DNA from: Halobaculum sp. MBLA0143
Lineage (GTDB): Archaea > Halobacteriota > Halobacteria > Halobacteriales > Haloferacaceae
DNA length: 64,000 nt
Direction: 5' to 3'
NCBI RefSeq assembly: GCF_041361465.1
Contig: NZ_JBGKAC010000001.1
Span: forward strand, 1,240,001-1,304,000
Each line of letters starts with the position of its first letter. Position 1 is the first letter of the stretch. Positions 4,726-58,873 of the stretch are shown one piece after another. The position numbers and the translations under genes are program-made. Under the pieces are notes generated by a model, which was given only the letters and a program-made list of their open reading frames with translations, ran no database searches and was not told where the DNA came from.

Positions 4726-5736
4726 TCACTGTGCCGTCTGTTGGGTCTCGACGTCGCTGAGCTGTTCGGCCTGCTCGGTGGCCGCCTCCATCTCCTCGTC
4801 CGTGCCGAGGCTGTCGAAGAACTCGTCGTCGTCCTCCTCTTCCATCTTCTCTTTGGGGTCCATCATCCCGCTGAGCGACGAGAGGAAGCCGGCGTACTGC
4901 TCGGACAGCTCCACCAGGTCCTCCGGGAAGATCGCCTCCCCGAGCGCGAGCTCTCTGAAGTTCTCCCGGTGGTCGATCATGATCCCGCGCATGGCGTCGA
5001 ACTGCTCCATCACGCGACCCAGTTCCTTCACACGGTCGGAGCCGGGGCCCAGCTCGGGACCCTGTGCCTCCTCCATGTTCTCGTAGAAGTGGTACTGCTC
5101 GCGGAGGTGGTCGAACTCCTGTTTGTCCGCCTCGTTCAGGTCCGACGGCTTCCCGTCGCCGACCAGATTCTCCATCTTCTGGCGGAGCTCCTGTTGTCGT
5201 TCTTCGGGGTTCACGTCGGAACTGCGCCGGTCCGTCTCCGCCTCGCGGTTCTCGAACCGTTCTTTCGCCTGCTCGACGCGGTCGTGGGCGTAGTCGATCC
5301 GTTCGATACAGGTGTCGAACATCGCCGCCCAGTTGTTGTACATCTTGGTGTACTCCGTCTCGGAGAGCTCGTCGAACGGCTTCAGGACGGTCACACCGTC
5401 GTTGTCGGAGGCCTCGACGATGTTCTGATCGTCGAGGTAGTCGATCACCGCCTCCGCCTGCCACTCCGTGTCGGCGAACTGGTCGTCCGACTCGACCAAC
5501 GCGGAGACCGCCTGCTCACGGTCGATCTGTGCTTCACCCTGGTCGCTGATGTCGAGCGCGTTCCCCAGGTCGTGGTCCATCAGTTGGCTGACGAGCCGCT
5601 CCCAGTTGGCCTCCTCCTCGGCGTCATCCTTCCGCTGTACGATACTCCCGTCGAACCTGACGGCCTCGTCCCGGCTGCTCCTCGGAACTGCCGTCACCAT
5701 TCCGTCCGATTGTTTGAAGTCGTCGAACTTCGTCAT
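4726..5736 (-). CDS. Acidic coiled-coil protein of the AAA+ operon, unknown function
   Basis: 336 residues. ATG at 5736 overlaps the stop of the upstream gene by 4 nt. The N-terminal 120 residues include a possible winged-helix-like fold (DREQAVSALVESDDQF, then AVIDYLDDQNIVEASDNDG). Residues about 135-270 are long charged helices likely to form coiled coils. The tail is very acidic (MEEEDDDEFFDSLGTDEE) and ends in Gln/Glu-rich sequence. No enzymatic motif is visible. Translational coupling on one side and a 7-nt gap on the other make it part of one transcript with the AAA+ ATPase. It may be a scaffold or substrate adaptor; that is inference. Confidence 0.82.
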   Translation of the reverse strand: MTKFDDFKQSDGMVTAVPRSSRDEAVRFDGSIVQRKDDAEEEANWERLVSQLMDHDLGNALDISDQGEAQIDREQAVSALVESDDQFADTEWQAEAVIDYLDDQNIVEASDNDGVTVLKPFDELSETEYTKMYNNWAAMFDTCIERIDYAHDRVEQAKERFENREAETDRRSSDVNPEERQQELRQKMENLVGDGKPSDLNEADKQEFDHLREQYHFYENMEEAQGPELGPGSDRVKELGRVMEQFDAMRGIMIDHRENFRELALGEAIFPEDLVELSEQYAGFLSSLSGMMDPKEKMEEEDDDEFFDSLGTDEEMEAATEQAEQLSDVETQQTAQ

Positions 5737-51603: not shown

Positions 51604-51710
51604 ACCGCTACCACGGACGGAAAGCCCCTCAAACTGTCGACGGGCCGCGACCGCGACCACGACGCACTACGACCCCTCGACCACTCCCGTGTGACGGACG
51701 TTTTCGGTGC

Positions 51711-51752
51711 GCCTAAACTTCGAAACTCTCTTGAGTTTTAGGCCTGCCTAAA
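51711..51752 (+). promoter_or_regulatory. DtxR-type iron box over the promoter of the DUF5059/cupredoxin gene
   Basis: TTTAGGC-CT-GCCTAAA (51737-51752) is a perfect palindrome ending 6 nt before the GTG at 51759, so it overlaps the transcription start. A second half-site GCCTAAA is at 51711-51717. The TTAGG..CCTAA pattern is that of DtxR/IdeR/SirR metal-dependent repressors. TTGAGTTTTAG at 51731-51741 may be the TATA box. Confidence 0.65.
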
Positions 51753-51758
51753 CCAGAC

Positions 51759-54242
51759 GTGCAACGAGACAGACGGCGGTTCCTGATCGGTGCCGGTGCG
51801 GGACTGACTGCGGCGCTGGCGGGCTGTAACACACAGAGCGAGGAGGAGACGACGGCGACGGAGTCCGCGGCGGACGGCGAGTCGACGGGGACGGACGCGG
51901 CGACGGACGGCGCGGCGGCCACGAGCGTCGGCGCGGCGACGGCGGTCGCCGCCGAGTGGACGGCGATGCGGGCTCGGCTGTTCGACGCCGTCGCGCTGGC
52001 GGCGGCCGGCCGGCCGGCCGCCGGCGCCGCCGTCACCCAGTCCGTGTTCGCTCGCTTCGAGAACGCGAGCGGGGAGTGGGGCGCCCACGAGCAGTTAGAA
52101 CATACGAACGCCGACAACTACGAGACGTTCGAGGCGAATCTCTCCAGGCTGTCGGAGGCGTTGTCGGCGGGCGAGGTCGCCGAGGCCCGCGAGGCGGCCG
52201 TCGCCGCGAGCGACAACCTCCGCGCGGCGGCGTTAGGTCGGACGGACCAACCGACCGCTCACGCCCTCGAACTCCAACTGCTGGGCACCCACGTCCGCAA
52301 CGCCGGACTGCTGGCGGCCGCCGGTCACACGGACGGCGCCGTCGCGGTCGGGCAGGCGACGCTGACGGCGTTCGAGCAGGCCGCGGTCCACGACGCCGTC
52401 GAGGAGACCGCACCGGAGGCGTACGAGACGTTCGAGGGTGAGCTGAAGGCGACCGTCGCGGCCGCCGAGGCCGGCGACGGCGCGGCCGCCCACGAGGCGA
52501 GCGAGGCGTCGCTGTCGGCGGCGGTCGAGGGGTCGTACGCGCTGGCGGACGCCCAGACGGCCGGCGCCGGCGAACTCGCGGTCGCACAGGCCCGGGCGTT
52601 CGACGCGACGGCGGTGTCGAGCCTCGGCGGCCCCGGCGTCGGACTCGCACACGCGACGACGCTGACGAGCTACCGGGCGCAGGCCTACGACGCCGTCCGG
52701 CTGGCCGACGCCGGCGAGACCGATGCTGCCTCCGCGCTGTTGCGCGAGGTGTTCGCGGACTTCGAGGGCGCGACCGCTCACGACCCGTTCGAGGAGGCGG
52801 ACGCGGAGTCGTACGAGGCGTTCGAGCGCGGGCTGTCGGCGCTCCGGTCGGCCGTCGAGAACGGCGAGGCGACGGCCGAGCCCCTGGCGACCGTCGACGA
52901 GAGTCTGCTCGCGGGCGTCACCGCGCTCGGGGGCCAGCAGGCGACGACGCTGGAGGCCGCCTTCTTCCGGGCTCGTTTCTCTGACGCCCGGCAGGCGTAC
53001 GCGACCGGCGACGGCGAGACGGCCGCGGCGCTGGCAGAGTCGTTGTTCGAGCGGTTCGAGCAGAACGAGGCGGGAGTCCACGAGGCCTTAGAGGAGACCA
53101 GCGCGGAGCTGTACGAGTCGTTCGAGGACGAACACCTCTCCGGGCTGATCGAGGCGTTCCGCGCGGGCGACGACGAGGCCGTGGCGACCCACTACGACGG
53201 CGTCCAGTCGGCGTTGTTCGAGTTCCAGACGCAGTTCGCCGGCACGGCGGCCGTTTCGGCCGCGGGGGCGGCGTACATGGACGCTCGCGTCTTCGACGGC
53301 GTCGCCGCCGCGCACGTCGGCGACGGCGAGCGGGGCGCGAGTCTCGTCGGCTCCGCGTTCGAGTACTTCGAGTCCGGCGCCGGCGGCTTCCACGAGGCGT
53401 TAGAGGAGGCGGACGCGGAGACGTACGAGACGTTCGAGTCGGAGTTGGGCGCCGTCCGGTCGGCGATCGAGTCCGACGGCGACGCCACCGCCGCGGGGCT
53501 GGCGTTCCACGACCGGGCGGTCGCCGCGGCGACGGCGGTCGTCGGCGCCGGCACGGGCGGCTCCCTCGACGGACTCCCGGGGACGGCCGCGCAGGCGACG
53601 TTCCAGGCGTTCGAGGCGGCTCGCGTCCACGAGACGTTGGAGGAGGCGGACGGTGAGACGTACGAGTCGTTCGAGGCCGCGCTCGGCGAGTTCGTCGGCG
53701 CCGTGCAGGACGGCGGCGACGCCGCGGGCGCCGTCTCGACGTTCGCCGATCACGCCGCCCGCGCGCAGTTCGCGGTCGTCGGCGGGCTGGGGAAGGCACC
53801 GGCCGTCGCCGGCGCGTCGATGGACTCCGGAGAGTCCGACGAATCGGAGGCGTCTGGCGACACGGAGTACGAGGGCGGCCCGAACGTCGTGAGTGCCGAC
53901 GAGGTGCCGGAGGACGCGACCGTCGTCGACCTACAGGCGGTCGCGTTCACACCGGAGACGGTCACCGTCTCGGCGGGCGATACGATCGCGTTCGTCCACG
54001 CCGGGGGCGAGGCGCACAACGTCGTCGCCTACGCCGACCAGACTCCCGAGGGCGCGCCGGAGTGGAACTCCGCGGGCGCCGACTCGGAGTCGGCCGCCGT
54101 CGAGGCCTGGGAGGAGGGACGGGGAGCCGTCGTCTCCGGACGGGCGTACGTCCGGACGTTCGAGACCGTCGGCGAACACGGCTACTACTGCACCCCTCAC
54201 GAGATGGCCGGCATGGTCGGGACGGTGATCGTCGAGGAGTGA
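51759..54242 (+). CDS. Tat lipoprotein with DUF5059-like repeats and C-terminal cupredoxin domain
   Basis: 827 residues from GTG 51759. The signal has RRR and the lipobox AALAGC (Cys23). An acidic Thr linker follows. Residues about 60-690 hold seven or so related helical repeats of about 85-100 residues, each with an E/D-SYE-x-FE-type core (NYETFEANLSRL, AYETFEGELKA, SYEAFERGLSAL, TYETFESELGAV). The C-terminal 110 residues are a plastocyanin/halocyanin-like domain with copper ligands H (GEAHNVV), C and H (YYCTPHE) and M (MAGMVG). The combination recalls EfeO, which joins a cupredoxin to helical iron-binding repeats, though in another order. Control by an iron box makes an iron-uptake or metal-binding role likely. 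Held outside the cell by lipid. Confidence 0.84.
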   Translation: MQRDRRRFLIGAGAGLTAALAGCNTQSEEETTATESAADGESTGTDAATDGAAATSVGAATAVAAEWTAMRARLFDAVALAAAGRPAAGAAVTQSVFARFENASGEWGAHEQLEHTNADNYETFEANLSRLSEALSAGEVAEAREAAVAASDNLRAAALGRTDQPTAHALELQLLGTHVRNAGLLAAAGHTDGAVAVGQATLTAFEQAAVHDAVEETAPEAYETFEGELKATVAAAEAGDGAAAHEASEASLSAAVEGSYALADAQTAGAGELAVAQARAFDATAVSSLGGPGVGLAHATTLTSYRAQAYDAVRLADAGETDAASALLREVFADFEGATAHDPFEEADAESYEAFERGLSALRSAVENGEATAEPLATVDESLLAGVTALGGQQATTLEAAFFRARFSDARQAYATGDGETAAALAESLFERFEQNEAGVHEALEETSAELYESFEDEHLSGLIEAFRAGDDEAVATHYDGVQSALFEFQTQFAGTAAVSAAGAAYMDARVFDGVAAAHVGDGERGASLVGSAFEYFESGAGGFHEALEEADAETYETFESELGAVRSAIESDGDATAAGLAFHDRAVAAATAVVGAGTGGSLDGLPGTAAQATFQAFEAARVHETLEEADGETYESFEAALGEFVGAVQDGGDAAGAVSTFADHAARAQFAVVGGLGKAPAVAGASMDSGESDESEASGDTEYEGGPNVVSADEVPEDATVVDLQAVAFTPETVTVSAGDTIAFVHAGGEAHNVVAYADQTPEGAPEWNSAGADSESAAVEAWEEGRGAVVSGRAYVRTFETVGEHGYYCTPHEMAGMVGTVIVEE

Positions 54243-55650: not shown

Positions 55651-56253
55651 ATGACTGACTACGAACTCGACCCACTCCCGTACGACTACGACGCACTGGA
55701 ACCGCACATCTCCGAGCAGGTGCTGACGTGGCATCACGACACCCACCACCAAGGCTACGTCAACGGCTGGAACAGCGCCGACGAGACGCTGGCCGCGAAC
55801 CGCGAGGAACACGACTTCTCCGGCTCGGCCGGCGCCATCCGTGACGTCACCCACAACTCCTCGGGCCACATCCTCCACGACCTCTTCTGGCAGAACATGT
55901 CGCCGGAGGGCGGCGACGCGCCGGACGGGGAGCTCGCCGACCGCATCGAGGAGGACTTCGGCTCGTACGAGGCCTGGGAGGGTGAGTTCCGTGCTGCCGC
56001 CAGCGACGCCTCCGGCTGGGCGCTCTTGGTGTACGACACCTTCTCCAACCAACTCCGGAACGTGGTCGTCGACAACCACGACGAGGGTGCGGTCTGGGGT
56101 GGACACCCGGTCCTCGCGCTCGACGTCTGGGAGCACTCCTACTACTACGACTACGGCCCGGACCGCGGCGACTTCGTGGACAACTTCTTCGAGGTCGTCG
56201 ACTGGGAGGAGCCGAGCGCTCGGTTCGAGCAGGCCGTCGAGCTGTTCGAGTAA
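55651..56253 (+). CDS. sod: Manganese/iron superoxide dismutase
   Basis: 200 residues. The metal ligands are H28 in LTWHHDTHHQGYVN, H in GHILHDLFWQN, and D and H in ALDVWEHSYYYDYG. The GGHP segment and terminal helix are standard. The DVWEHSYY motif is shared by both metals; haloarchaeal enzymes are usually Mn. Acidic surface and length are typical. It turns superoxide into peroxide and oxygen. Leadered promoter described separately. Confidence 0.96.
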   Translation: MTDYELDPLPYDYDALEPHISEQVLTWHHDTHHQGYVNGWNSADETLAANREEHDFSGSAGAIRDVTHNSSGHILHDLFWQNMSPEGGDAPDGELADRIEEDFGSYEAWEGEFRAAASDASGWALLVYDTFSNQLRNVVVDNHDEGAVWGGHPVLALDVWEHSYYYDYGPDRGDFVDNFFEVVDWEEPSARFEQAVELFE

Positions 56254-57634: not shown

Positions 57635-57925
57635 GTGCCACGTCCGAAATCCGAGTTCGACGACCTGTACCCCTGTGACTTCTACACCCCGACGGAGCTG
57701 TTGGAGTCGGGTCAGATGTACACCGTCTACGAGATCGCCCGGCTGCTCCAGGATCTGGAGGCGGACGCGGAGCTAGAGCCCGGCGAGGAGGAGATCCTGC
57801 TGGACTGGGCGATCCCGTGGCTGCTGTCTCACGGCGACGACCTGGTGATCGCAGAGCCGCCGACGGACGCCGACCCGGGCTTCTACGGGCTGCGGGAGGA
57901 CGGCGACCTCCCGGGCGAGTCGTGA
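57635..57925 (+). CDS. Small acidic protein coupled to a P-loop ATPase gene
   Basis: 96 residues from GTG 57635 (PRPKSEFDDLYPCDFYTPTE). Helical, very acidic, with YTVYEIARLLQDLE and an end of DLPGES. Its TGA overlaps the GTG of the ATPase gene (GTGA), which supports the frame. Codons upstream of 57635 are Arg-rich and part of the opposite gene's shadow. No family recognised. Confidence 0.68.
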   Translation: MPRPKSEFDDLYPCDFYTPTELLESGQMYTVYEIARLLQDLEADAELEPGEEEILLDWAIPWLLSHGDDLVIAEPPTDADPGFYGLREDGDLPGES

Positions 57926-58722
57926 GGCTACTCGTCGCCGGCGGCGACCGCGTCGACGCCGGGAAGACCACGTTCGCCGTCGGGCTCGCGGCCCGGCTGG
58001 ACGACCCGTTGGCGGTCAAGCCCCGCGCCGGCAACGACCTGTGGTTCGACCACGACGACGCCGTCCGGGCGCTGTCGGCGGGTCGACTGTACGGTAAAGA
58101 CGCCGCCCGGCTCGCGGCGGCGACGGACGCCGACGGCCCGGAGGCGATCAACGCCGTCCACCGGCTGTGGCGGCCCACGCCCGGTCGGACCGGGATGCTC
58201 GGCGAGACCGACCGGACGTTCCTGGCCGACCGCGTCGCCACCGGCGACGGCGACCGGGTCGTCGTCAACGACCGTGTCGATCTCCCGGGGGCCGTCCGCG
58301 ACCTCGCCGACGACCCCGTCCGGGTCGACGACGTCGCCGCGTTCAACGACGCGATGGCCGACTGGCACCTGGACGCGCTCTCGCGGCTGGGCGAACGAGT
58401 CCGAACGGCCGACCGCCCCGTGATCGTGGAGTCGTACGCCGACGTGGCCGACCCGTTGCGGGCGCCGACGTACGACGCCGTCGCCGTCGTAGAGCCCGGT
58501 CGGTGTCGGGTGTACGACGGCCGTCGGTGGGAGATCGCCCGCGAGGCCGCCGGTGATCGCGCCGACGGTCGGTTGGAACAACGCGTCGCAGGCGTCACCG
58601 ACGGGCTCGAACCCCTGTCGACACACGACCTCCGGCCGTTGTCGTCCGAGGCCCGCACGAACCCCGCAGCCGTCGCGGACGCCAACCACGACGCCTACGA
58701 CGGACTGTTGGCGGCCGTCTGA
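57922..58722 (+). CDS. P-loop ATPase/GTPase-like protein
   Basis: 266 residues from GTG 57922. The start RLLVAGGDRVDAGKTTFAVGLA is a Walker A of the GxxxxGKT type with the loop GDRVDAGKTT. A later VVVNDRVDLPGAV and VDDVAAFNDAMADWH, and RPVIVESYADVADPL could form Walker B-like and switch regions. DLWFDHDDAVRAL is typical of a small family of archaeal predicted ATPases. The role is not known. It is coupled to a small acidic protein, and a 30-bp tandem repeat starts at its stop. Confidence 0.78.
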   Translation: MRLLVAGGDRVDAGKTTFAVGLAARLDDPLAVKPRAGNDLWFDHDDAVRALSAGRLYGKDAARLAAATDADGPEAINAVHRLWRPTPGRTGMLGETDRTFLADRVATGDGDRVVVNDRVDLPGAVRDLADDPVRVDDVAAFNDAMADWHLDALSRLGERVRTADRPVIVESYADVADPLRAPTYDAVAVVEPGRCRVYDGRRWEIAREAAGDRADGRLEQRVAGVTDGLEPLSTHDLRPLSSEARTNPAAVADANHDAYDGLLAAV

Positions 58723-58873
58723 GTCGCTGCCCGACTACCGCCGGAACGACAACTCGCTGCTCGGCTACCGTCGGAACGACAACTCGCTGCTCGGCTACCG
58801 TCGGAACGACAACTCGCTGCTCGGCTACCGTCGGAACGACAACTCGCTGCTCGGCTACCGCCGGAACGACAGC
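58721..58873. repeat. 30-bp tandem repeat, four full units plus partial ends
   Basis: Full units start at 58741, 58771, 58801 and 58831. The last three are identical and the first differs by one base (C for T). A unit begins TCGGAACGAC and ends TCGGCTACCG. Partial copies flank the array. It fills the gap between the ATPase stop (58720-58722) and the convergent hydrolase gene. No spacers, so not CRISPR. Confidence 0.92.

Follow-up and report, generated by a model that had tools for sequence, protein, structure and literature searches.

Which role a lipoprotein that joins DUF5059 to a cupredoxin plays, and whether iron controls it, is the question raised by one gene of the window (the whole 64-kb stretch of DNA analysed here). 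The gene (51759..54242, + strand, as for all features of the gene and its promoter below; 827 aa) starts with GTG at 51759, where its relatives in the sequence comparison have ATG. The encoded protein consists, in this order, of a twin-arginine lipoprotein signal, an acidic linker, DUF5059 and a copper-binding domain. The Tat-type signal comprises residues 1-23 (51759..51827) and ends in the lipobox LAGC; R5, R6, G22 and C23 were invariant in the alignment (n = 63 sequences). With both the twin-arginine pair and the lipobox cysteine present, the protein is a predicted Tat lipoprotein. A Pfam scan matched PF16502 (DUF5059) to residues 62-681 (E 2.9e-217; 723.7 bits against a gathering cut-off of 25, profile positions 1-619, thus full-length) and PF00127 (Copper-bind) to residues 721-826. 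The initial annotation, which had described a lipid-anchored protein with a cupredoxin, was therefore confirmed by the invariant R5, R6 and C23 and by the PF00127 match. Family and architecture are identical to those of HVO_1228 (hcpE) of Hfx. volcanii, and HFX_RS06015 (hcpG) of Hfx. mediterranei belongs to the same family of haloarchaeal DUF5059 halocyanins with the same domain content (PF16502 plus PF00127). In the portions of the literature considered here, these halocyanins appear by name only, and the iron operator, the unit architecture and the His/Glu signature are undiscussed.

Regarding the promoter, the palindrome TTTAGGCCTGCCTAAA at 51737-51752 is the single match within the window, and 0 of 100 dinucleotide shuffles of the window yielded one. 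It was first described as lying over the start of the gene; its existence stands, while its 3' end falls 6 nt upstream of the GTG at 51759. Inside it lies a perfect iron box, TTAGGCCTGCCTAA (51738..51751). A second, distal box, TTCGGTGCGCCTAA (51703..51716), was found 35 bp upstream of this proximal box, with one mismatch to TTAGG-N4-CCTAA and one arm degenerate; the half-site at 51711, where the feature as first annotated had its left edge, is part of it. The two boxes frame a BRE/TATA-like sequence (TTCGAAA...CTTGAG, 51717..51737), which is the putative core promoter.

This layout of box, core and box recurs in the aligned upstream regions of the orthologues. Upstream regions came from 60 loci in GTDB genomes as well as close relatives, and 64 were left once identical copies had been removed. 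Two of these were set aside, one with a misassigned start (L044, in which the box is nonetheless there, at 5642) and one belonging to a shortened, probably decayed gene (L086), leaving 62. A perfect TTAGG-N4-CCTAA was detected 3-8 nt before the start codon in 61 of the 62 distinct haloarchaeal regions, and the sole exception carries a single mismatch. In 60/62 regions, the proximal box is accompanied by a further one, 33-37 bp upstream and with no more than one mismatch, whereas a control stretch 50-61 bp upstream always showed at least three mismatches; since the 62 regions share descent, these counts are not independent. Changes in the distal box almost always affect one arm only, at an A/T position adjoining GG or CC. 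In the case of the proximal box, the two central bases vary freely while the arms are invariant, which argues for a palindrome bound by protein. On the basis of the sequences, we conclude that the DUF5059 gene sits behind a conserved, predicted double operator of the DtxR type that frames the promoter.

The TTAGG-N4-CCTAA box is the core of the published DtxR consensus TTAGGTTAGCCTAACCTAA (PMC7762939), and the search was extended to whole genomes. In the window organism's own genome (two contigs, 3.58 Mb), 9 perfect boxes were found compared to 0 for the reversed control, nearly always 4-11 nt before a start codon. Besides the DUF5059 gene, single boxes precede the genes for an extracellular solute-binding lipoprotein (SBP_bac_8/1/11/6 matches), a family-2 glycosyltransferase, a gluconate-2-dehydrogenase-subunit-3-like protein (C1:1688627), a 60-residue DUF7331-like protein, an FAD oxidoreductase and a putative 10TM heavy-metal exporter (ArsP_2; C2:322192, L004/L013). 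The remaining two (C1:37706 and 37734, L006) lie before an RGP-like gene adjoining the boxed solute-binding gene; they are a mere 28 bp apart. Judging from its family and its box, the solute-binding protein is presumably ferric. The genome also encodes a regulator with DtxR, metal-binding and FeoA domains, a candidate for the repressor. The boxed ArsP_2 gene adjoins a DtxR-like regulator that lacks a match to the usual metal-binding domain, as well as a ferritin-like gene, and this locus may serve manganese or iron efflux or storage.

Similar results were obtained in relatives, with 27 boxes in Hfx. larsenii (control 0) and 24 in Hfx. sulfurifontis (control 1). In Hfx. larsenii, perfect tandem boxes exactly 36 bp apart (L130, 1892 and 1928) stand upstream of a siderophore cluster (iuc, IucA/IucC family), the first long siderophore gene of which begins at 2056. 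Tandems with the same 36-bp spacing also precede several Peripla_BP_2 lipoproteins of the Fe-siderophore-binding type, and other Peripla_BP_2 lipoproteins are preceded by single boxes or box pairs. Taken as an iron regulon, the set thus has a TTAGG-N4-CCTAA operator at the promoter and shares this operator with siderophore and iron-uptake genes. According to the sections of PMC11349517 considered here, the fhu operons of Hfx. volcanii bear a FerR regulon signal, and the FerR or DtxR-type haloarchaeal iron regulons (Leyn and Rodionov 2015, cited therein) have the same operator type, promoter position and siderophore-uptake co-members. The difference to these is the tandem with a weaker distal box, measured in the present analysis. 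Two further observations were made in this search. The gluconate-2-dehydrogenase-subunit-3-like gene is boxed both in the window genome (L010) and in Hfx. larsenii (L140), an unexpected conserved iron-box gene. Also in Hfx. larsenii, a short ORF (L130:1960-2076; ATG, MQTQSTRVHSAATWCQC...) begins a few nt past the proximal box, before the first long siderophore gene, and could possibly be a leader peptide or an unannotated small protein.

Published expression data provide an independent view on this control. In the tables of PMC7714728, HVO_1228 rises by log2 4.2 upon CRISPRi of endA (tRNA splicing endonuclease repressed) in Hfx. volcanii, which places it among the top ten raised genes; five genes from the siderophore locus rise alongside it, and iucA/B/D and iron-ABC genes are among those raised. 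The table of PMC9051519 gives a decrease by log2 2.92, along with iucA and diaminobutyrate genes, in the cas1 fen1 double mutant. Both tables are indirect evidence, as they compare strains at unvaried iron. Because the box is conserved, precedes siderophore genes in relatives and belongs to a gene whose HVO_1228 counterpart moves with siderophore genes, control of the DUF5059 gene by iron is predicted with high confidence. The DtxR-type iron-box control proposed initially is hence well borne out as a prediction, by the conserved box, by its sharing with siderophore and siderophore-binding genes, and by published transcript co-regulation with the siderophore cluster.

To describe the protein itself, its structure was predicted from 63 sequences (mean pLDDT of 88.8 for the whole protein); residues 56-291 predicted alone reached 95.9, with a pTM of 0.92. 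In the predicted model, DUF5059 is built of units of about 100 residues, each with four long helices and a short one, and the units are mutually homologous (hhalign probabilities of 98-99.6%). Six units were counted instead of the 'about seven' helical repeats first reported, five of them contiguous and one split. U1 (residues 57-163, 51927..52247) and U2 (residues 164-264, 52248..52550) are followed by an isolated helix (residues 265-291, 52551..52631), probably helix 1 of U6, which is parted from the rest of that unit by the helical units U3 (residues 292-392, 52632..52934), U4 (residues 393-495, 52935..53243) and U5 (residues 496-600, 53244..53558). Helices 2-5 of U6 then comprise residues 604-681 (53568..53801). 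In a 503-aa homologue (L025/L083, probably a single species), precisely U3-U5 are missing and the isolated helix and U6 are retained, which suggests that three units were gained or lost within the loop of the last unit.

Each unit carries a signature of three motifs: helix 2 ends in FxxFE, the short helix contains HExxE, and YxxFE is found in helix 4. All three are invariant in U1, and in U2 the signature is degenerate. The series E/H/E/Y/E (Glu of FxxFE, His and second Glu of HExxE, Tyr and Glu of YxxFE) is conserved essentially everywhere in U1, U3, U4, U5 and U6, and glutamates of the signature account for 18 of the 25 acidic positions that are best conserved in DUF5059. This pattern is consistent with a putative repeated carboxylate/histidine metal site; a structural hydrogen-bond network is another possible reason for the conserved His and Glu. 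Searching solved structures by sequence with DUF5059 gave nothing significant. Searching by structure with the whole model returned cupredoxins only, and the matches listed for the two-unit model were only generic helical bundles (best Foldseek E 0.33; VIA Z of at most 11.7, which is under the level that VIA deems meaningful for bundles). The unit fold is a common helical-bundle arrangement. As an example, U2 aligns over the full chain of the small metal-binding protein SMBP (3u8v; 83/83, rmsd 2.3) with a Z of 10.2, a value that unrelated helical bundles also reach, and no sequence similarity was shown.

The C-terminal domain (residues 705-827, 53871..54239; PF00127) has the plastocyanin fold and matched plastocyanin 2plt in VIA with a Z of 14.9 and an rmsd of 1.1 over 91 aligned residues. 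The type-1 copper ligands H753, C811, H814 and M819 are 100% conserved. Fold and all four ligands are the same as in halocyanin and plastocyanin, so that the domain is predicted to be a plain type-1 (blue) copper domain of this type. In contrast to those proteins, it follows 600 residues of helical units, under an iron box.

Altogether, what is new and most useful on this gene is that its operator is a tandem, that the siderophore system shares this operator, that published data show the co-regulation, and that the units carry the signature. An extracellular function related to iron in some way is likely. More specifically, we consider at about even chances that the protein is a surface lipoprotein induced by iron starvation in which iron binding in the units is coupled to copper redox chemistry. 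When iron is plentiful, a metal-loaded repressor of the DtxR family would occupy both boxes and block TBP/TFB and the start of transcription. Under iron scarcity, the DUF5059 gene would be turned on along with the synthesis and uptake of siderophores. Its product would then be anchored on the outer side of the membrane, where iron or a different metal could be bound by the carboxylate/histidine clusters in the units and the blue-copper domain could exchange electrons with the unit-bound iron or with a partner. Iron would thereby be captured and put into the right redox state for uptake. The extracellular metal or redox role proposed from the first reading can thus be kept as something that we infer, given that the type-1 copper ligands are intact and that the His/Glu signature of the units is invariant. 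Still more tentative, with the odds somewhat against it, is the proposal that DUF5059 represents a new multi-site extracytoplasmic iron-binding module, in which units of about 100 residues, each with a Glu/His/Glu/Glu iron site, would be wired to a blue-copper domain.

Besides the commonness of the unit fold, the possible hydrogen-bond role of the conserved His and Glu and the unvaried iron in both expression tables, two observations speak against iron capture. Firstly, no conserved gene neighbour was found across the DUF5059 family, the neighbours being lineage-specific, and hence none links the gene to a transporter; the gene accordingly stands alone with its own promoter. Secondly, HVO_1228 is missing both from the proteins changing more than 10-fold and from the main text of the iron-starvation proteome of Hfx. 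volcanii (PMC11349517). DUF5059 was found in 12/60 relatives and, in a phylum-wide sample of 294 genomes, in 11, all within the window organism's own order. Its distribution is patchy, and it occurs with and without siderophore synthesis genes. None was found in a search of viral contigs.

Regarding other explanations, the protein could be an iron-sparing electron carrier, in which the blue-copper protein replaces surface haem or FeS carriers and the units do no more than form a stalk or docking scaffold under the S-layer. The cupredoxin is of the plain plastocyanin/halocyanin type, the number of units is variable (3 vs 6) as in a stalk, and, as stated in the sections of PMC11349517 considered, cytochrome and ferredoxin proteins drop in iron-starved Hfx. 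volcanii. However, the invariance of E/H/E/Y/E in five of the six units is unexpected for a mere stalk, and copper halocyanins already serve haloarchaea for one-electron transfer (PMC8305020), so that little iron would be left to spare at this step. Overall, we regard this explanation as unlikely.

A lower probability still is assigned to a manganese or general metal box, that is, an operator read by an MntR-like DtxR protein and a lipoprotein that handles Mn, Cu or Zn. The one boxed ArsP_2 gene, which has a DtxR-like regulator and a ferritin-like gene as neighbours, would agree with this. The fit of the box to the DtxR consensus core, the boxes before siderophore and Fe-siderophore-type genes and the FerR signal on the fhu operons all argue against it. 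Very unlikely is an extracellular ferroxidase or an iron/copper detoxification protein that guards the surface rather than feeding uptake: a type-1 copper beside carboxylate/His sites could in principle oxidise Fe(II), but the co-expression with siderophore genes points to iron scarcity and not to excess.

Iron capture coupled to copper redox chemistry, the reading that we prefer, would work in the manner of EfeO of EfeUOB, to which the initial annotation had likened the protein. In EfeO, a cupredoxin is joined to an imelysin (M75) domain, and for EfeM, an M75 protein, the binding of metal was measured (PMC3143127, PMC9174327). In both cases, an extracytoplasmic cupredoxin is fused to a helical-bundle module with a His/Glu motif under iron regulation, all of this being predicted for the window protein. 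Differences are that the cupredoxin is at the opposite end here and that the helical part consists of repeated single-bundle units. True homology to EfeO/imelysin, which would make the protein the extracytoplasmic component of an EfeUOB system that has diverged, is hardly credible despite the shared combination of cupredoxin and helical bundles and the His/Glu motif on a short helix, since the Pfam scan found no PF09375 (M75) match in the protein, hhalign gave a probability of at most 5% for DUF5059 against the M75 domain of EfeO, the conserved motif is H-E-x-x-E with an invariant Glu as fourth residue after the His and not as third as in GxHxxE, which is absent, and neither FTR1/EfeU nor M75 was found above cut-off in 60 haloarchaeal genomes including the organism's own. 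Imelysin is likewise absent among the matches listed for the two-unit model in the structure search, although this is no proof by itself. The likeness in design, a cupredoxin plus a helical module, is therefore retained, and the family relation is dropped.

If the multi-site iron module were true, haloarchaea would have reached the design of EfeO independently, for redox-coupled iron capture. The window protein suggests that different domains of life have convergently combined cupredoxins with helical metal modules for iron uptake. In practical terms, a domain of unknown function becomes a testable candidate for iron acquisition in a genetically tractable group (HVO_1228 of Hfx. volcanii), and the conserved two-box haloarchaeal iron promoter can be used for listing iron-regulated genes.

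Two features further downstream in the window are worth recording. A haloarchaeal Mn superoxide dismutase (NF041312) is encoded at 55651-56253, 1.4 kb downstream of the DUF5059 gene, with no perfect iron box upstream of it. At 58724-58871, at the 3' end of or just after an ORF at 57817-58722, lies a tandem array of a 30-bp unit with 4.9 copies and 96% matches.
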